From Bacteroidota bacterium (lineage in GTDB: Bacteria; Bacteroidota; Bacteroidia; AKYH767-A; 2013-40CM-41-45), in assembly GCA_026391975.1 (NCBI GenBank), contig JAPLDB010000080.1:43714-82578 (forward strand): a stretch of DNA of 38,865 nt. The letters run 5' to 3'. The notes under the pieces were generated by a model. That model worked only from the letters and a program-made list of their open reading frames with translations. It was not told the DNA's origin and made no database searches. A program made the position numbers and the translations under genes. How positions within the stretch are numbered: the first letter of the stretch is position 1; the number at the start of each line of letters is the position of its first letter. Positions 8 through 38,865 of this stretch are shown piece by piece.

Positions 8-253
8 ATGAAGTCAGCTGCTACTTATACCAGTACCATACCGAGGGATTTGTTACTGATGCTAAACAAGTATTCCGAATTATTTGAGATTCCTAAAAAC
101 AAGGTCATTGAAAAGGCCCTTCGGTATTATTTTGATGAACTAAAAAAAGCCGAGTATGTGAAATCGTTTAAGAAGGCCAATGAAGACGGCGAAATGCTAA
201 CAATGGCCGAAGAGGGGCTGGAGGATTACCTTAAAATACTCGATCACAAATGA
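8..253 (+). CDS. Antitoxin of a MazF-type toxin-antitoxin pair (ribbon-helix-helix-like)
   Basis: An 81-residue protein directly upstream of a MazF-like toxin, overlapping it by ATGA, so the two are translationally coupled. The N-terminus (about residues 5-45) looks like a ribbon-helix-helix DNA-binding fold: a short strand around TYTSTIP, then two helices around LLLMLNKYSELFEI and KNKVIEKALRYYFDE. The acidic C-terminus (residues 58-78, AEEGLEDYLKIL) is a typical toxin-binding tail. By family behaviour it should neutralise the downstream nuclease and repress its own operon. The ATG is preceded by GAGAACT, but the promoter and any operator lie outside the window. The fold is inferred from pattern alone, and I cannot name the antitoxin family precisely. 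Confidence 0.8.
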   Translation: MKSAATYTSTIPRDLLLMLNKYSELFEIPKNKVIEKALRYYFDELKKAEYVKSFKKANEDGEMLTMAEEGLEDYLKILDHK

Positions 254-582
254 GACAGGGAGAGATCTTTATGGCCAATCTGAATCCGACCAGAGGCAAT
301 GAACAACGTGGCCTGAGACCGGTGGTTATAGTGAGCGGAAATGCAATGAATGATCATTTCGGTGTCGTGATTGTAATGCCTCTGTCAACAAAAATAAAAA
401 AATATGCAGGGTGCATACTTCTAAAAAAAGATAAAATAAATAACCTGAAGCAGGATTCAGAAGTAATCACATTTCAATTGCGTTCTGTTTCAAAGGATCG
501 CCTCACAAAAAAAATGGGAAATATTTCCGGAGATCAGCTGCATGAATTGAAGAAAAAATTACTTGAAGTTTTAACCTATTGA
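250..582 (+). CDS. mazF: MazF/PemK-family endoribonuclease toxin
   Basis: A 110-residue protein of normal MazF length. The N-terminus carries the family signature: a GEIFMANLNPTRGNEQRG stretch (residues 4-21), then RPVVIVS (23-29) and VMPLST (42-47). Together these form the SH3-like barrel and supply the conserved Arg and Thr/Ser of the cleavage site. MazF toxins cut mRNA at short sequence motifs when the antitoxin is degraded. The start overlaps the antitoxin stop by ATGA. The last codon and stop overlap the end of the convergent GH3 gene by 7 bases, so no terminator fits between them. All visible motifs are intact, so the toxin is probably functional. Confidence 0.93.
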   Translation: MRQGEIFMANLNPTRGNEQRGLRPVVIVSGNAMNDHFGVVIVMPLSTKIKKYAGCILLKKDKINNLKQDSEVITFQLRSVSKDRLTKKMGNISGDQLHELKKKLLEVLTY

Positions 583-3913: not shown

Positions 3914-6241
3914 ATGCACTCATCAGGATTAAAAGTAATTATTGTTTTTGCGTTCGCACTTTTCATGAGTTCATGTAAGAACACGAAGAGTGGTTTTATC
4001 AGCCGCAACTACCACGACCTCACAGCCCGCTATAACGGACTTTACAATGCCAACCTGAAAATTGAAGATGGCGCACAGAAACTTTCTGATGCACAGGTTG
4101 ACATTTATGACAGGACACTTCCGGTATATAAATATGCCGATGCTCAAAAGGCAAAAAGCATTTATCCGCAAATGGACGAAGCACTGAAGAAGACAAGTAC
4201 TGTTATTCAACGCCATACCCTCGTTGATAAGAACGGAAATGAAAAGCCGGATAAAGAACACTGGATTGACGACAACTGGATCGCTTATGGGAAGGCACTG
4301 TTCTACAAACATGAATATTTTGAGGCAATTGAGACATTTAAGTACGTAGAAACAACATACAAAAAAGAGCAGGGCAGGCATGAAGGCTCATTGTGGCTTG
4401 CCAAGACTTATTTGCAACTCACGCAATTAAAAGAAGCAGAGGACAAGCTTGATTACCTGCGTAATCAGAAGGACCTGAGTAAAAAAGTCCGCGCCGAATA
4501 CGATGCCGTTGCAGCAGATTTCTATTTGCAGACAAGAAATACTGATCGCGCCATTGAGCACTTGAAGCTTGCCATTCCGGTGGCAAAAAACAGGAATAAC
4601 CAGATCAGGTACATGTTCATACTGGCTCAATTGTATCAGCAAAAAGGAGATTTCAAAACAGCATTTGAACTGTATACAAAGGTGATCAAGAAAAATCCGG
4701 TTTATGAAATGGCATTCAACGCCCGCATAAACCGTGCACGATGTTTCGATGCGCAAAGCCAGAACAGCAACAGCGTGAAGAAGGAGTTGCAGAAGATGGC
4801 AAAAGATCCGAAGAACAAAGAATACCTCGACCAGGTTTACTATGCACTGGCAGGTATTTCACAAAAGGAAAGCAAGGAGGAGGAAGAGATCATTTACCTT
4901 CAGAAATCTGTTTTGGCAAGCACCAGCAACAAGAACCAGAAGGCAATCAGCTATCTCGAACTCGGGAAAATTTATTTGTCAAAGCCGGATTACAAAACGG
5001 CTCAGTTGTACTATGACAGCTGTATTACCAACCTTGGTAATGACCATCCAGACTATACAGACATTCTTACCAAAAGAAATTCCCTCACCAAGCTGATGAA
5101 GGCGTTGAATACCATTCACGATCAGGACAGCTTGATGGTGCTTGCCAGGATGACGCCTGCTGAACGAGAAAAAGCCGTTGACGACCTCCTGAAAAAAGAA
5201 GATGAGGAGCGTCAGCGGAAGATGGAAGAAGAAAAGGAGCAGCAGGTTAATCAGCTATTCAATACTGATACAAAGCAGCAACAGCCAACCCGGGGCAATG
5301 GATCATCATGGTATTTTTACAATACCTCGGCAATCAGTTTTGGCACCAATGATTTTCAGCGCAAATGGGGCAACAGAAAACTGGAAGATGACTGGAGGCG
5401 CAGCAACAAGCAAATGAATATACAGGAAGATGAAACGGTAGTGGAGGAAACAAAAAAGGAAGAGATCAAAGACCCGACTGAGGCGCGTGAAGCACACAAG
5501 AAGGAATTGCTTGATAAAATTCCAAGCGACCAGGCTGCTATTGACAAATCGATGGGCAAAGTAATTGACGCCTATTACAATGCTGCCATGATCTATAATG
5601 AGCAGCTGAACGATAAGCCTGCGTCGGCAAAAATGTTTGAAGACCTGCTGTCAAAATACCCTGACAATAAATACAAGTTGCCTGCATATTACCAGTTGTA
5701 TCGTCTTTATCTCTCAATGAAGGATCCTCAGAAGAGTGATTACTATAAGAATCTGCTGCTTGATAAATATCCCGATAGCGACTATGCCATGATCATCAAG
5801 AACCCGAACTTCATGGCAGAGAAGGCGTCAAAAAAATCAGACATTGAACTTTTCTATGAGGATACATACCGAAAATATTTAAATGGTGAATATGCTTCTG
5901 TGATTTCATGCAAGGCACAAGCGGAGCAAATGTATCCCGGCAATATTTATGTTCCCAAGTTTGACATGCTGAAAACGCTTTCCATTGGCCGGACGCAGCC
6001 TGTTGGAGTATTTACGGCATCTCTTCAGGACATTGTCAGGAATTACTCCGAGGATCCTGTGAAGGACCAGGCACAGGATATTCTTGATTACATCAATGGC
6101 ATAAGTTCTATTGATGACAACAAAATTCCAGAGAAGGACACAGTTGCCAGAATGTATAACTACATGGAAAGCGCCCCCCATTTGCTTGTGATCTCTTTCC
6201 GCAATGTCGGTCCTGTTAATTCTGATCAGCTGAAGAACTGA
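3914..6241 (+). CDS. sprE: SprE/PorW-like TPR lipoprotein of type IX secretion and gliding (C-terminus frameshifted)
   Basis: A 775-residue protein with a lipoprotein signal: a hydrophobic stretch at residues 7-18 and a lipobox ending at C21 (FMSSC). Many TPR-like helical repeats follow (for example around 125-300 and 590-650), with a charged coiled region at about 410-450 (KKEDEERQRKMEEEKEQQ). SprE/PorW is needed for the T9SS, linking the outer-membrane translocon to the periplasmic motor. The frame ends at a TGA (6239-6241) just where homologues continue. The missing C-terminal part is encoded in the -1 frame directly downstream, and joining the two gives about 867 residues, close to the family length. 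Neighbours are the M23 peptidase (divergent) and bactofilin (downstream). Confidence 0.88.
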   Translation: MHSSGLKVIIVFAFALFMSSCKNTKSGFISRNYHDLTARYNGLYNANLKIEDGAQKLSDAQVDIYDRTLPVYKYADAQKAKSIYPQMDEALKKTSTVIQRHTLVDKNGNEKPDKEHWIDDNWIAYGKALFYKHEYFEAIETFKYVETTYKKEQGRHEGSLWLAKTYLQLTQLKEAEDKLDYLRNQKDLSKKVRAEYDAVAADFYLQTRNTDRAIEHLKLAIPVAKNRNNQIRYMFILAQLYQQKGDFKTAFELYTKVIKKNPVYEMAFNARINRARCFDAQSQNSNSVKKELQKMAKDPKNKEYLDQVYYALAGISQKESKEEEEIIYLQKSVLASTSNKNQKAISYLELGKIYLSKPDYKTAQLYYDSCITNLGNDHPDYTDILTKRNSLTKLMKALNTIHDQDSLMVLARMTPAEREKAVDDLLKKEDEERQRKMEEEKEQQVNQLFNTDTKQQQPTRGNGSSWYFYNTSAISFGTNDFQRKWGNRKLEDDWRRSNKQMNIQEDETVVEETKKEEIKDPTEAREAHKKELLDKIPSDQAAIDKSMGKVIDAYYNAAMIYNEQLNDKPASAKMFEDLLSKYPDNKYKLPAYYQLYRLYLSMKDPQKSDYYKNLLLDKYPDSDYAMIIKNPNFMAEKASKKSDIELFYEDTYRKYLNGEYASVISCKAQAEQMYPGNIYVPKFDMLKTLSIGRTQPVGVFTASLQDIVRNYSEDPVKDQAQDILDYINGISSIDDNKIPEKDTVARMYNYMESAPHLLVISFRNVGPVNSDQLKN

Positions 6242-6516
6242 GCAACTACAACACGAAGTACTACAGTACAAAAGGATATTCCATCACCAGCCAGTTGCTG
6301 GATCACATTACACAAATCATCATTATCAGGGAGTTTAAGAATAAGGAAGAAGCGATGCTGTATTACAATGGCGCCAACGATAATGATGAAATATTCGGAA
6401 ATACGAACCCTGACCTTTATAACATATTCATAATTTCTGACAATAACTTTCCATCCTTTGTTAAGGACAAAAAGATTGAAACCTATCAGGATTTTTTCAG
6501 GAAATTCTACCAATAA
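6238..6516 (+). pseudogene. Displaced C-terminal end of sprE (-1 frame)
   Basis: This frame is open from CTG at 6238 (LSNYNTKYYSTKGYSITSQ) to a TAA at 6514-6516 and encodes about 92 residues. The sequence reads on naturally from the end of the main frame (VGPVNSDQLKN) and has the look of the SprE/PorW C-terminus, including EFKNKEEAMLYYNG. The only in-frame ATG is at 6295, too late to start a sensible protein. I therefore read this as the tail of sprE separated by one missing base between 6226 and 6241, and not as a separate gene. Confidence 0.8.
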
Positions 6517-6643: not shown

Positions 6644-7066
6644 ATGTTCAATAAAAATTCTGACTCAAGGAAAACAGATTCCGGAACATCATCCATCAAT
6701 CTAATCGGTGCAGGTACCGTTGTTGAAGGAGATATCAAATCCAATGGCGATATCCGCATTGACGGAAGCGTGCGGGGAAACGTCGTTTCAAAAGCCAAGG
6801 TTGTGGTTGGAGCCACCGGTTCAATTGATGGCAACGTTACCAGTCAGAATGCAGATGTAAGCGGAAGCATCCGTGGTAAGGTAACAGTGAATGAACTCCT
6901 GTTCCTTAAATCTTCAGCAAACATACAAGGCGATATCGTTACAGGGAAACTGGTTGTGGAAGTGGGCGCCACCTTTACAGGTACGTGCAACATGGGTCCT
7001 ATGATCAAGGACATGCACAACAACAATGAAAAGCAAAATGAACTGAAGGAAAAGACAGGATCCTGA
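6644..7066 (+). CDS. Bactofilin family polymer-forming cytoskeletal protein
   Basis: A 140-residue protein with a short disordered N-terminus (residues 1-20, rich in Ser, Lys and Asp). A bactofilin core (about 20-118) follows, built of short beta-helix turns with repeated G-x-I/V patterns: GTVVEGDIKSNGDIRIDGSV, then GNVVSKAKVVVGATGSIDGNV, GSIRGKV, and finally ANIQGDI. The C-terminal tail is charged. Bactofilins polymerise without nucleotide, usually at the membrane, and position wall enzymes or other envelope machines. An M23 peptidase and a T9SS lipoprotein lie next door. The gene has its own upstream promoter and a downstream intrinsic terminator, so it can be a single-gene unit. Confidence 0.94.
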   Translation: MFNKNSDSRKTDSGTSSINLIGAGTVVEGDIKSNGDIRIDGSVRGNVVSKAKVVVGATGSIDGNVTSQNADVSGSIRGKVTVNELLFLKSSANIQGDIVTGKLVVEVGATFTGTCNMGPMIKDMHNNNEKQNELKEKTGS

Positions 7067-7176: not shown

Positions 7177-10089
7177 ATGAAGCGCATTATTTTTTTCATC
7201 CTTTCATTTTTTCCTGTATTTGTTTTTGCACAATTTCAGGATGACTTTACAGACGGAGACTTTACAAATAACCCTACATGGAGCGGAGATGCAGCACAGT
7301 TTACTGTGAATGCCTCCCAGCAATTACAACTTAACAGTACAGGTACAGCAACATCTTTTTTGTCTGTTCCCAATTCAATGTCATCTCTTGACAATACTGA
7401 ATGGCGTTTTTGGATCAAGCAAAGTTTTTCACCATCAAGCGCCAATTACGGAAGGGTGTATCTTGTATCTGATCAGGCTTTGATCACCGGTCCGTTGAAC
7501 GGTTATTACCTTCAATTCGGAGAAGCACTTTCGCTCGATGCCATTGAATTATTCCGGCTGGATGGAAGCACCTCAACTTCAATTTGCAGGGGAATTGATG
7601 CTGAAATTGCAAGTTCATTTACAGTGGGAGTGAAGGTCACCCGTAATGCAAGCGGATTGTGGTCACTCAGTGTTGACGCAACGGGCGGAACAAACTATAC
7701 ACTGGAAGCCACAGGGACAGATGCCACATACAACACATCAGCATATCTTGGAGTGGAATGTGTCTACACTTCCAGCAATGCCACGAAATTTTATTTTGAT
7801 GACTTCTATGCAGGCGGAGGAGTTGTTGATGTTACACCCCCTACCATCATTTCAGCCACGGCGGTTTCTGCCACACAGGTTGATGTATTGTTTTCAGAAA
7901 CTGTTGACCAGACAACAGCTGAAACGGAATCCAATTATGCAATTGCTCCTGCCATCGGCGTTCCTTTGTCAGCGATCCGTGATGGAAGCAATCTTTCTCT
8001 TGTGCATCTCTCGGTAGCAAGTGCATTTGCTTCAGCAACAACATATACCCTTACCGTCAATAATATTAATGATGCAGCGGGAAATACCATTCTTGCAAAT
8101 TCAACAACAACATTCACTTATTCAGCAGATGTAACCCCACCTGCGCTGTCGTCGGCAACAGCAGTTACGGCAACCCAGCTCGACGTTTTGTTTTCAGAAG
8201 CTGTTGACATTACAAGCGCACAGGTTCTTGCGAATTATTCAGTGGACAATACAATAGGCAATCCATCATCTGCTCAGCGGGACGCTTCAAATTTCAGTCT
8301 TGTTCATCTTGGTTTCACAAATTCTTTTGCAACAGGAACTACATATACTTTAACGGTTAATAATGTAAACGACCTTTCCGCGAATACCATAGCTTCGAAT
8401 TCATCGGCATTTTTTTCCTGGGTTGTATCCGGAGCGCCTGTTCCTTCTGATGTTGTGATCACTGAGTTTATGGCAGATCCTGATCCCCAGATCGGGTTAC
8501 CAAATGCCGAGTACATTGAGATCTATAACCGCAGCAATAAAATATTTGATTTATCAGGATGGAAGATCGGTGATTCGGGAGTTCCCGATGACCTGTCTTC
8601 ATTTCAATTAAGGCCGGATTCATTCTTAATATTATGCAGCAGTACATCAGTTACTTCATTTGCAGGATATGGTAGTGTGATGGGAGTTACTTCTTTTTCT
8701 CTGAACAATACAGGAGGTGATGATGTGATTCTTTATGACAATAATTCAACCATCATTGACAAAGTTCATTATGATGAATCTTATTATCACAATTCTGCAA
8801 AGATCGATGGTGGATGGAGCATTGAGCGCATTGATCCCGGCTATACATGCACCAGCGAAGCAAACTGGAGCGCATCAGTTGATCCATCCGGAGGAACACC
8901 GGGCAGGGTGAATAGTATTAATGGGATATTTGATGATGTGGTTGCTCCAAAGCTCCTGCGTGCATGTCTGGATGATTCACTCCATGTTACTTTATATTTC
9001 TCTGAGCCAATACCTGATACAGCTCTGATCAATGTGTCCAACTATTTCATTTCAGAAACAGACATATTGCTTGGTAACCCCGCTGCTGCTGTTTCTTCCG
9101 CTGATGGAATGAGCGTTACCCTTACACTTACAACATCTGCTGCTTCAGGTGTTTGGACAGTTGCGATAGTTCAAACATTTGCTGACTGTTCCGGAAATGT
9201 GATCAGCAACAATCAAGCAAACTTTGCAACACCGGTTGCTTCTTCTCCCGGCGATATTCTGATCAATGAAGTATTATTCAGCGTTGACAATGGTGCGGTT
9301 GAGTTTGTTGAATTATTTAATTCCTCCAATAAAATTATTGACCTTGGATCAATGGAGATCAATAATTACAGCATCACCAGCGGGTCTCCAAATACGCCAC
9401 AGGTATTGGCTAACGGATGTTACCTGATGTTTCCATCAACCTATCTTGTACTGAGCGATGACGGAGATAAAATAAAAGCGCATTACATAACCAAAAACCC
9501 TGATGCTTTCCTTGATATGGCTTTGCCTGATTTGCTTACTGATGAAGACATCATCGTTCTTAAAAATGCTGCTTCCGAGGTGCTTGATTCACTTCATTAC
9601 TATACTTCCTGGCATTTTCCATTGCTGAATGATGTACATAATATTTCACTTGAGAGATTAAGTGCATCCCGCCCGACCAATGAAAGTCAGAACTGGCACA
9701 GCGCCGCAGAGACTGTTGGTTTTGCAACACCGGGCTATAAAAATTCGCAGAATAATGAAGCCGGAACAGGCAAGGACGATGTCACTGTTGAGCCAGAAGT
9801 TTTTTCGCCTGACAATGACGGAACAAATGACGTGGTGAATATTTTGTTTCATTTCGAAACACCAGGTTATCTTGCCAATGTAAAAGTGTTTGATTCAAAA
9901 GGAAGAGCTGTACGAACGCTGATTCAAAATCAATTGCTCGGCAATGACGGAGCTTTTAGCTGGGATGGCGTAAATGACGATAAAGAAAAGGCGCGCACCG
10001 GAATCTATGTCTTTTACATAGAAGTATTTAACCTGAATGGTGATGCAAAGGAGTTCAAAAAGACCTGTGTATTGGCTACTAAACTCTGA
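7177..10089 (+). CDS. Secreted multidomain protein: Ig-like repeats, two lamin-tail domains, FlgD-like C-terminus
   Basis: A 970-residue exported protein. A signal peptide covers residues 1-18 (cleavage after VFVFA). A LamG-like beta domain follows (about 20-212), then two SbsA/Big_5-like Ig repeats starting DVTPP at about 218 and 318, exactly 300 bases apart. A lamin-tail domain (about 425-575, from VVITEFMADPDP) precedes a third Ig-like region (about 583-690) and a second lamin-tail domain (about 690-850, from GDILINEVLF). The C-terminus (868-970) has FSPDNDGTNDVV, WDG and GIYVFYIEVF, the pattern of the FlgD-like/CHU_C C-terminal domain, often a T9SS signal. Probably surface-bound or secreted and adhesive; no enzyme motif is visible. 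Confidence 0.88.
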   Translation: MKRIIFFILSFFPVFVFAQFQDDFTDGDFTNNPTWSGDAAQFTVNASQQLQLNSTGTATSFLSVPNSMSSLDNTEWRFWIKQSFSPSSANYGRVYLVSDQALITGPLNGYYLQFGEALSLDAIELFRLDGSTSTSICRGIDAEIASSFTVGVKVTRNASGLWSLSVDATGGTNYTLEATGTDATYNTSAYLGVECVYTSSNATKFYFDDFYAGGGVVDVTPPTIISATAVSATQVDVLFSETVDQTTAETESNYAIAPAIGVPLSAIRDGSNLSLVHLSVASAFASATTYTLTVNNINDAAGNTILANSTTTFTYSADVTPPALSSATAVTATQLDVLFSEAVDITSAQVLANYSVDNTIGNPSSAQRDASNFSLVHLGFTNSFATGTTYTLTVNNVNDLSANTIASNSSAFFSWVVSGAPVPSDVVITEFMADPDPQIGLPNAEYIEIYNRSNKIFDLSGWKIGDSGVPDDLSSFQLRPDSFLILCSSTSVTSFAGYGSVMGVTSFSLNNTGGDDVILYDNNSTIIDKVHYDESYYHNSAKIDGGWSIERIDPGYTCTSEANWSASVDPSGGTPGRVNSINGIFDDVVAPKLLRACLDDSLHVTLYFSEPIPDTALINVSNYFISETDILLGNPAAAVSSADGMSVTLTLTTSAASGVWTVAIVQTFADCSGNVISNNQANFATPVASSPGDILINEVLFSVDNGAVEFVELFNSSNKIIDLGSMEINNYSITSGSPNTPQVLANGCYLMFPSTYLVLSDDGDKIKAHYITKNPDAFLDMALPDLLTDEDIIVLKNAASEVLDSLHYYTSWHFPLLNDVHNISLERLSASRPTNESQNWHSAAETVGFATPGYKNSQNNEAGTGKDDVTVEPEVFSPDNDGTNDVVNILFHFETPGYLANVKVFDSKGRAVRTLIQNQLLGNDGAFSWDGVNDDKEKARTGIYVFYIEVFNLNGDAKEFKKTCVLATKL

Positions 10090-13593: not shown

Positions 13594-13612
13594 TTTTGTT
13601 GTCTATTGGCGT

Positions 13613-14605
13613 TCAATACGCCCACTTCAGCCAGATACTTCCCCATGTGAATCCGCCGCCAAATGCAGCGAGAATCAGGTTGTCGCCTTTTTTTAATATC
13701 TTTTCATAGTCCCATAAACAAAGGGGAATAGTTCCGCTGGTTGTGTTTCCGAATTTCTGGATGGTCATCATAATTTTTTCTTCACCGACTCCCATGCGTC
13801 TAGCAGTAGCATCAATGATGCGTTTGTTAGCCTGGTGCGGTACAAGCCATGCCACATCATCTGCAACAAGGTTATTGCGCTCCATGATTTCTGCACTTAC
13901 GTCTGCCATTCCTTTTACGGCGAATTTGAAAACGGGCTGTCCATCCTGGAAAACAAAATGTTCTTTTTCATCTACAGTTTTATGTGAGGCAGGCTTTACG
14001 GAACCGCCGGCTTTCTGGTGAAGGTATACCCTTCCGCTGCCGTCACTTCTCAGGATTGAATCCTGAATTCCGAATCCTTCAGTATTTGGTTCCAGCAAAA
14101 CTGCGCCTGCTCCATCTCCGAAAATAATGCAAGTGGAGCGATCACTGTAATCAACGATGCTGCTCATTTTATCAGCTCCGACGATGACCACTTTCTTGTA
14201 CTGGCCGCTCTCAATAAATTTAGATCCGGTAACAAGGGCATATATAAATCCTGAGCAGGCGGCCTGGATATCATATCCAAATGCATTCTTTGCGCCGATT
14301 TTATCAGTAATAATATTAGCCGTAGCAGGAAAAACAAAATCAGGAGTGGTTGTTGCGCAGAGGAGCATGTCGATCTCTGAAGGATCAATGCCCCTTTTTC
14401 TGCAAAGTTCCAGCACAGCAGGAGCAGCCATATCACTGGTGCCTAATCCTTCGCCTTTGAGTATTCTCCGTTCTTTGATTCCTGTGCGGGAAACGATCCA
14501 TTCATCCTTGGTGTCGACCATTGTCTCGAGGATCTCATTGGTCAGTCTGAACTCAGGTACAAATCCTCCAATGGCAGTGATTGCGGCCGTTATTTTTTTG
14601 CTCAT
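13613..14605 (-). CDS. fabH: 3-oxoacyl-ACP synthase III (FabH)
   Basis: A 330-residue condensing enzyme of full FabH length. The catalytic triad is visible: C117 in [12 protein letters not shown]257 in VPHQANKRI and N287 in [20 protein letters not shown] near residue 36 is the substrate-entry region. It condenses acetyl-CoA, or branched acyl-CoA, with malonyl-ACP to start fatty-acid synthesis. It is the last gene of a DUF177-rpmF-plsX-fabH cluster, 98 bases after plsX; this spacer contains a run of eight G. The gene is convergent with the sulfatase gene, only 19 bases away. Confidence 0.97.
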
Positions 14606-27717: not shown

Positions 27718-28158
27718 TTGAGCGTGGAAAACAGTATTCAGGATATTGAAAATGAAATCATCGAAGAGTTTGAACTCTTTGATGAGTGGAGTGCCAAGTA
27801 TGAATACATCATTGAACTCGGACAAAAGTTGCCGCCATTGGATGAGAAGTACAAAGTAGATGAAAACAAGATAAAAGGATGCCAGAGCAGCGTGTGGCTG
27901 AATGCATATGAGAAGGATGGGAAAGTGTTTTTTGAAGCAGACAGTGATTCAACTTTCGTGAAAGGAGAAATTGCTTTGCTGATCCGTGTATTGTCAGATC
28001 AGAAGCCTGAAGATGTGATCAATGCTGAGTTGAAATTTATTGACGTAATTGGTTTGCGGCAACACGTTGCTGTGACAAGGGCAAACGGACTTGCAAGCAT
28101 GATCAAACAGATGAAGATATTCGCACTCGGTTTTCAGACAGTGAACCGTAAATTATAA
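27718..28158 (+). CDS. sufE: Sulfur acceptor protein SufE
   Basis: A 146-residue SufE-fold protein. The sulfur-accepting Cys is C55 in KIKGCQSSVWL. YEYIIELGQKLPPLDEKYK, GEIALLIRVLSDQKPEDV and TRANGLASMIKQMK are family-typical. SufE takes persulfide sulfur from the cysteine desulfurase SufS and passes it to the SufBCD scaffold; none of those genes is in this window. The start is unusual: the frame begins with TTG (27718), with GTG at 27724 as an alternative. The only nearby ATG (27704) is in the -1 frame and hits a TGA overlapping the TTG. It is the first gene of sufE, SufT-like, DUF2480. Confidence 0.92.
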   Translation: MSVENSIQDIENEIIEEFELFDEWSAKYEYIIELGQKLPPLDEKYKVDENKIKGCQSSVWLNAYEKDGKVFFEADSDSTFVKGEIALLIRVLSDQKPEDVINAELKFIDVIGLRQHVAVTRANGLASMIKQMKIFALGFQTVNRKL

Positions 28159-36796: not shown

Positions 36797-37705
36797 CTAA
36801 TTCGATTTAATAAACTTCGTCGTGTATTGTTCATCCGCACCCGACAGTTTACAGATATACACTCCCGGCGCGAGGTCAGTAAAATCCTCATCCAGCTTGT
36901 AGGTATTGGCCCTGAAAAAACGATTGTCAAAAAATTTCTTTTGGGTTTCACCCAATGCATTTAAAACTTCAATGGAATAATAACCCTCACGCTGTATTTT
37001 GAAATTCAAAAAGGATCTTGATGTGGTAAGAGAAGGTGCCAGGAAAAACAGGTTGTTGTTTTTGCTGTTCACGTATTCGGTTTGGGAATAATCATGATCC
37101 GGCCTTGCCATGCGCTGTGGGCAACCGGGAACGGTAATGGGTGAAATGTAAGCGTGAAATTTTGAACCGGCATTTGCCCTGAAACCATGTTTGAGTACCA
37201 CCTGGTTGGAGGCGACAAATGTTACATCAGCGTTTGCATCAACAATATAAGCTCCCTGGGGCTGGTTGTTGTCCACGCTGGTTCCCGCTTTGATAAAATC
37301 AGCAGCTTCATAATTTAAGATTGTGCGCGTTTCTGTTTTGTTTTGAAATAACCATTGTTCGTCTCTTTCTGTTACGGTTCCGCCGGTATAGAGCAATTGG
37401 TATCTCTGTTTGTTTATGTTTGTTGGGGTATTTTCAAAAACAATTTCCGAGCCGGGGTTTATTTCAAAGGTGCAATCAAAAAGTTTTACGCAGGGTTCGA
37501 TGGTGAGTTTGCTGCCGCTAATTAAATGGTAGATTGATGAATACTTGTGATCCGTTGAGCCATTGGGGTAAGCGTTGGAACTGATGTGGTAATCCATAAA
37601 TAGGTCTGTTTCAACAGGGACCTTTCTAAGGTCAGTGAAGGGCCCACCATTAGATGGATCATTATTAGCAGCTTCTACATAATAATCAAAACTCTGGATG
37701 CTCAA
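36797..37705 (-). CDS. C-terminal part of a split T9SS cargo protein (type A sorting domain)
   Basis: A 302-residue frame with TTG as its only upstream start (37705), overlapping the previous frame's TGA. It reads on from that frame and holds GGPFTDLRKVPVETDL, LISGSKLTIEPCVKLFDCTF and NADVTFVASNQVVLKHGF (repeat-like beta segments). A C-terminal type A T9SS sorting domain follows (about 215-302), with SFLNFKIQREGYYSIEVLNALG and DLAPGVYICKLSG, and ends TTKFIKSN. Such proteins are secreted through the T9SS and anchored on the surface. I read this as the back half of the gene at 37702-38865, separated by one missing base. Confidence 0.8.
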   Translation of the reverse strand: MSIQSFDYYVEAANNDPSNGGPFTDLRKVPVETDLFMDYHISSNAYPNGSTDHKYSSIYHLISGSKLTIEPCVKLFDCTFEINPGSEIVFENTPTNINKQRYQLLYTGGTVTERDEQWLFQNKTETRTILNYEAADFIKAGTSVDNNQPQGAYIVDANADVTFVASNQVVLKHGFRANAGSKFHAYISPITVPGCPQRMARPDHDYSQTEYVNSKNNNLFFLAPSLTTSRSFLNFKIQREGYYSIEVLNALGETQKKFFDNRFFRANTYKLDEDFTDLAPGVYICKLSGADEQYTTKFIKSN

Positions 37706-38865
37706 TTCCGATTATAAATTACTTTTTCAATAGGGTTAATTCGTGAAAGATCAATATACTTATCAATAAAATATTTATGAACCATTTCCTGCCCAGGGGT
37801 AACTTTCGAATTTAGATTAGTTCCGTCATTGCTATATCCTGCTAGAGCTTCGCCGTATGAAATACGGGGAAAGGTTGAAAGAATAAAAGTAAATGGTGCA
37901 ATAGGAAGTCTATCGGCTGTATAAGCATCCACTGTAAAGGAATTGGCCGGGTTATTCACGGGTACGTATGAGAGTACCGTACAATCATTATCATCAATTT
38001 CATTATAGGGTTGATAATCAAGCGTACCACCCAAAATAGATCCCCAAACAGCCGAACATTGGTTTATAATGTTAGAAGGAATAGAATATGCTTCACAATT
38101 TTCAGTTTTGGAATAATCGGAATTGAGCATCCAGAGTTCAGGCTTTATTACTATATCGTGAGTGGCAATCCCTCCGGGTGTATTGCTTGAGGTAAATGGA
38201 TATTCTCTCATTTTACCACGGGTATGATCAAGCAAAAATGAAAAAGAATTAATTATGGGAGATCCTGTCAAACTCGTTCCGCAATGAAGACGGATTGTAT
38301 GTTTTAAAATGGTATGTGGTAAGGCATTGCGATCGTTACCCACTCCACCACCTTCAAACGTTGATGAAACAAGAGAATTTGGGCTACTCATCCATGAATT
38401 AATATCAGGACGAGTTCCTGTTTGTAAAACGTATCGCGAAAGTTTATTCGTGGAAATTTGACTAGTTAAGGGATAGTCCCAAGAGTTAGAATTAGAATTA
38501 TAATAATTGTCTTCAGGCATAATTAACTCTCGAGTATTACCATAACCACAATTACCATCAGGATATGTAGAATTTGGGAATGCACAATCAAGTGAAAAAG
38601 GGAATGAAACTGCTTCAATTTCATAGGAAATAAGGAAGTTATTTATGTCAATACCTGGCGACACGCGGGACTGATTACCCCAAGGGATGTTGGAAAGATC
38701 AATTTGATACTCTCCGTTATAGACTATCCCTTGGTAAAACCAATAATAATAGGTTGGGCCCGTTTGAGCAGAATACACAAAATCTGCAAGAGGCTTCGAA
38801 GGAGGGGTATTGTAGAAATCTATTAGTTCCTGTGCCACAATCAAATTTTTTGAAGAGTAAGCATA
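37702..38865 (-). CDS. Front part of the split T9SS cargo protein, 5' end beyond the window
   Basis: The frame is open to the window edge, so the true start lies outside; the earliest internal start is TTG at 38844. About 387 residues are visible. They are rich in Asn, Ser, Tyr and aromatic residues, with several Cys, and show no enzyme motif I recognise. The end SRINPIEKVIYNRN followed by TGA is where homologous T9SS cargo proteins run into a beta-rich stretch, and that stretch is found in the -1 frame. The protein is likely a long surface protein. Confidence 0.75.
   Translation of the reverse strand, partial: YAYSSKNLIVAQELIDFYNTPPSKPLADFVYSAQTGPTYYYWFYQGIVYNGEYQIDLSNIPWGNQSRVSPGIDINNFLISYEIEAVSFPFSLDCAFPNSTYPDGNCGYGNTRELIMPEDNYYNSNSNSWDYPLTSQISTNKLSRYVLQTGTRPDINSWMSSPNSLVSSTFEGGGVGNDRNALPHTILKHTIRLHCGTSLTGSPIINSFSFLLDHTRGKMREYPFTSSNTPGGIATHDIVIKPELWMLNSDYSKTENCEAYSIPSNIINQCSAVWGSILGGTLDYQPYNEIDDNDCTVLSYVPVNNPANSFTVDAYTADRLPIAPFTFILSTFPRISYGEALAGYSNDGTNLNSKVTPGQEMVHKYFIDKYIDLSRINPIEKVIYNRN

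Follow-up and report, generated by a model that had tools for sequence, protein, structure and literature searches.

In the window, as we call the whole stretch of 38,865 nt analysed here, the sprE (porW) gene of a Bacteroidota bacterium is split by a frameshift near its 3' end; compared with its homologues, a net 4 nt are missing. The explanation we prefer to an assembly error is that sprE has recently undergone a real deletion in a dispensable domain (probability roughly 0.55). Following such a deletion near the 3' end of the sole sprE gene of the sequenced population, SprE would stop inside a C-terminal ferredoxin-like domain, in its first helix, and would keep the two parts that hold the SprA translocon together, its lipid-anchored N-terminus and its TPR scaffold. 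The truncated protein of 775 residues would then be made and would work in this bacterium.

The sprE gene and its interrupted reading frame

The window corresponds to positions 43714-82578 of contig C196 in the draft genome G000 (3.61 Mb, 98% complete). Three features describe the locus:

3914..6241, + strand: sprE/porW main-frame ORF, truncated, 775 aa (NCBIfam NF052312, Pfam TPR, PDB 8gl8_I)
6226..6241, + strand: junction, the overlap of both open frames, with a net 4-nt loss compared to relatives
6238..6516, + strand: -1 frame encoding the remainder of the C-terminal domain, 92 aa and stop (homology to relatives' C-termini)

The main-frame ORF scored 660.7 bits against NCBIfam model NF052312 (cut-off 250), covering model positions 2-716 of 716, and matched the SprE chain of Flavobacterium johnsoniae in the PDB (8gl8_I) with an E value of 1.3e-70. 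This alignment, together with matches to Pfam TPR families, indicates that the TPR scaffold is present, and a putative lipobox (FMSSC, MSSC-like) was spotted by eye near residue 21. Judged by these similarities, the ORF is sprE/porW, as a preliminary description of this DNA had proposed, and the gene is single-copy in the genome. The NF052312 model stops at residue 723 of the window's SprE, upstream of the tail, and does not require the C-terminal domain.

The main frame finishes with SDQLKN followed by TGA. In the -1 frame, positions 6226-6513 are open and a stop follows at 6514-6516; from 6238 this frame reads LSNYNTKYYS, exactly as in the preliminary description, whose central claim of an sprE split between a main frame ending QLKN-stop and a homologous tail in the -1 frame is borne out by the ORFs and by tblastn. 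The C-terminal domain typical of order-level relatives is absent from the main frame and was found only in the -1 frame, which shares 36-59% identity with the relatives' C-termini. Using the homologue from genome G004 as query, tblastn returned two collinear pieces: nucleotides 3914-6235 (frame 2) and nucleotides 6235-6513 (frame 1; 59% identity, 121 bits). In all four homologues that gave both pieces (L004, L008, L011 and L012; a fifth query, L003, yielded the tail piece alone in the range shown and is left out of this count), the pieces skip one residue and share nucleotide 6235. One missing residue and one shared nucleotide amount to a net loss of 4 nt, not 1. In a 41-row alignment the junction columns are gap-free in all rows, and the window's X occupies the column of the missing residue. 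The preliminary description had suggested a one-base error (AACCTG read as AACTG) whose correction restores the family length of about 867 residues. Given the net loss of 4 nt, the protein corrected in this way would still be shorter by one residue than all its relatives, and we rejected a single-base error because it does not fit the family length.

The tail domain in related genomes

A sprE gene was found in 11 of the 11 genomes of the GTDB family, and in the other ten the open frames comprise 869-942 aa; the genus is represented among the compared genomes by G000 alone. In the order, 41 of the 42 genomes searched gave matches above the cut-off, and G036 gave weak matches only. Among these 41, G000 alone ends at the window's stop (777 codons, stop to stop), so that homologues ending naturally at this position, which the preliminary description had named as evidence against a split gene, were not seen. 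The other short order-level matches, in G015 (666) and G024 (686), both start no more than 8 bases from a contig edge. The tail domain is present in 40 of 40 distinct homologous ORFs (identical ORFs merged; the window's own gene, L001 and L002, and the weak hits L013 and L014 omitted). 39 of them extend to the family C-terminus, and L049 stops some residues before it with the tail domain still present. When the joined product was aligned to these relatives, its tail frame matched the full-length homologues, all 40 of which continue past the junction. No frameshift was seen in any relative's sprE in the family and order searches or in the 40-ORF alignment. By homology, then, the two frames of the window's sprE belong together and the downstream frame is not a product of chance.

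The C-terminal 115-118 aa of L015-L021 were noted as a domain that is conserved across the order and lies outside the NCBIfam SprE/PorW model. AlphaFold2, supplied with this domain of L021 and seven aligned pieces (six relatives and the window tail), gave a mean pLDDT of 88.1 and a pTM of 0.82 and predicted the order strand-helix-strand-strand-helix-helix-strand-helix-helix. That is, the domain is predicted with good confidence to adopt a ferredoxin-like arrangement. A Foldseek search with the tail fold returned nothing at E ≤0.001, the best matches being NikR, PII and a designed ferredoxin fold (E 0.003 to 0.013); NikR and PII domains are ferredoxin-like folds. The tail found no convincing match among PDB sequences or in Pfam. 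Residues 844-864 of F. johnsoniae SprE align with the most conserved part of the domain (I-S-x-x-N-Y motif) at just 0.3 bits, so that position and motif are what support this correspondence. In the cryo-EM structure the SprE C-terminus is poorly ordered, and the NCBIfam model does not reach it. All distinct order-level homologues examined share it as a conserved domain, and its predicted fold is ferredoxin-like.

The window's break sits in the first predicted helix, and what is left of the domain is its first strand and some of that helix (about 22 residues); since it falls inside a helix, it is not a natural domain boundary. This bears on the reading that SprE has its natural end here, followed downstream by a chance ORF or a distinct gene. 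The end of the NF052312 model at residue 723, before the tail, would fit such a reading, as would the different C-terminal domain of P. gingivalis PorW (PMC8754138). The remnant of a broken domain and the homology of the downstream frame to the relatives' C-termini speak against it, as does the fact that the tail frame has no ATG start close to the junction, and we regard it as highly improbable; a separate downstream gene in particular was rejected for this missing ATG and the clear homology.

Age of the frameshift

Throughout the GTDB family, SprE tails have diverged more quickly than SprE bodies. Tail distance divided by body distance comes to 1.44 for the window (sd 0.21, 10 pairs) and to 1.46 for the others (sd 0.25, 45 pairs). 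Of 13 tail columns that are at least 70% identical (39 rows), 11 are kept in the window, and the other two carry the conservative changes V to I and L to F. No stop was found inside the window's tail frame (6226-6513); a single-base change in the tail creates a stop in about 4.6% of cases, and 95% of neutral copies would have acquired one after about 0.24 substitutions per site. Because the divergence of the tail relative to the body does not exceed that of the relatives and decay is not visible, the frameshift, as far as its sequence can tell, is either recent or not real. Conservation of the tail in all 40 ORFs and the lack of faster evolution here suggest that selection maintained it until very recently, which is also what a mere sequence error would look like.

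Unchanged constraint on the tail and the overlap of the two frames are also what programmed -1 frameshifting, yielding a short and a long SprE, would produce. Yet no in-frame slippery heptamer exists in 6200-6241, and the downstream RNA fold is modest (-11 kcal/mol, z -1.43, with 17 of 200 shuffles equally good). Furthermore, the product of a -1 slip would be one residue shorter than every relative, inside a helix, and no shift occurs in any relative examined, so the site is not conserved. Programmed frameshifting has very little to recommend it, and the most likely origin of the frameshift is a recent mutation of an ordinary kind or an error in the sequence.

Deletion or assembly error

A real deletion is supported by the size of the loss (net 4 nt) and by the junction itself, which has no homopolymer (none of 3 or more in 6200-6260). 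The usual assembly error is a single-base one, unlike this loss. In an indel-rate control, none of the other 101 gene comparisons from G004 to G000 (739 kb of genome) showed a frameshift. With sprE, whose G004 locus was deliberately added to the query set, the comparisons number 102 with 35,784 aligned residues, and the reverse comparison gave 0 of 95. A stop inside the alignment occurred in 5 of the 102, one of them (13601-14596) being an antisense shadow of the gene at 13613-14605. With no frameshift in 101 comparisons, the assembly is not generally indel-ridden.

An assembly or consensus error, with the true gene uninterrupted and encoding a full-length SprE of about 867 residues, is nevertheless a serious contender, somewhat less probable than the deletion. 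It would account for a tail that is conserved in all relatives and undecayed in the window, and for G000 being the only one of 41 genomes to end here. The genome is a draft in 239 contigs, and two further split genes in the same 39-kb window, which count against a real deletion, make a local quality problem possible. What weighs against an error is the 4-nt loss at a site free of homopolymers and the clean record of the other 101 comparable genes, and we retain the recent deletion as the preferred explanation.

Other split genes in the window and genome

The two further split genes are as follows:

2146-2519, - strand: Fic/Doc-like gene, frameshifted beside a conserved motif (Pfam Fic, 44.6 bits in the first part)
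36797-38844, - strand: type IX secretion system (T9SS) cargo gene, split into two ORFs of 380 and 302 aa (several relatives are single ORFs of 700-772 aa that span the junction)

By eye, the rest of the Fic/Doc-like protein is open in another frame. The second ORF of the cargo gene contains GCX_COOH and Por_Secre_tail domains; its relatives in G009 and G038 also look broken. Fic/Doc and T9SS cargo genes are kinds that often decay, so these two cases do not decide between real mutation and error. The junctions of sprE and the cargo gene have GAAYTGAGCA in common, and of 59 occurrences of AAYTGAGC in 739 kb, only those at these two junctions have a TGA that closes an open frame of at least 60 codons. 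Compared to its relatives, the cargo gene lacks about 20 more residues beside the junction, which means that its net loss is not firmly 4 nt. The idea of the same 4-nt deletion at one motif in both genes was dropped as coincidence.

An intrinsic scan of 467 coding-like ORF ends produced 24 candidate frame changes, 8 of them without a nearby ATG. Two of the 8 are cases of the window described here, one at 28155 was judged an ordinary neighbour from the ORF list, and five lie outside the window. In these five candidate pairs no Pfam family was common to both halves: L125 and L074 match known but different families in each half, and L112, L121 and L090 have an upstream half without a Pfam match. 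L090 could be a split cargo gene. Also outside the window, a Bac_Flav_CTERM signal lies in a 154-aa open frame (39059-39304 of the same contig, - strand), perhaps another split cargo gene. Within the window, the + strand at 7177-10089 encodes a 970-aa protein with lamin-tail and bacterial Ig-like domains and a CHU_C type IX secretion signal, and an ORF at 6644-7066 sits between this gene and sprE. A small two-gene unit occupies 8-582 (+ strand); its second gene resembles MazF, below the NCBIfam cut-offs.

Type IX secretion with a truncated SprE

The preliminary description had assumed that a true loss would be costly. According to a study in F. johnsoniae, SprE itself is essential, its N-terminal regions make the contacts with SprA, and deletion of F759-P870 had no detectable effect on T9SS function and gliding (PMC10994853), which leaves this assumption unsupported. 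Residue 725 of the window's SprE aligns near residue 748 of the F. johnsoniae protein, so the window's stop at 775 lies inside the dispensable region and the loss is smaller than the engineered one. The same study describes the counterpart of the PorN-binding end of P. gingivalis PorW as 'neither conserved nor functionally essential' (PMC10994853); the conservation of the SprE C-terminal domain within the order is a different comparison. With its TPR scaffold left whole, the truncated SprE very probably still supports type IX secretion.

The gene content of G000 is consistent with this. SprA is intact (2423 aa, no stop), and 18 Bac_Flav_CTERM matches (14 above the cut-off) and at least 150 Por_Secre_tail matches were found. 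Intact SprA and the many cargo signals show that the genome relies heavily on the T9SS. A dead SprE is not likely, and this content would fit a working truncated SprE as well as a full-length one masked by an error. By analogy with F. johnsoniae, type IX secretion is probably intact with a SprE of 775 residues. Of the two options in the preliminary description, a wrong sequence or a dispensable tail, the latter is the better supported in terms of function, and the former, in its one-base form, is at odds with the family length. The case is a caution that secretion is not necessarily lost when an 'essential' secretion gene is frameshifted, since the cut-off part is dispensable in the single species tested.

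Comparison with known systems

The closest counterpart is F. johnsoniae SprE (8gl8 chain I) with its engineered sprE(dcterm) variant: the proteins are homologous, and in both cases a C-terminal region downstream of the TPR scaffold is removed. The engineered deletion (F759-P870) is larger, whereas the window's frameshift is known here from sequence. It is possible, though less likely than not, that the window holds the natural counterpart of this variant, in a bacterium with a heavy T9SS cargo load that has just shed an order-wide domain. If true, comparison with relatives would reveal the role of a SprE domain that is conserved yet dispensable in the laboratory.

P. gingivalis PorW is the same T9SS component and shares the family name (NF052312) with the window's SprE. 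Its C-terminal D6 domain is reported to bind PorN and to be lacking in SprE-type proteins (PMC8754138).

Recent frameshift truncations occur in draft metagenome genomes. They likewise have an intact downstream frame, stem from a single event and are absent from relatives; in contrast, the case in the window strikes a conserved core gene, though in a part that is dispensable elsewhere.
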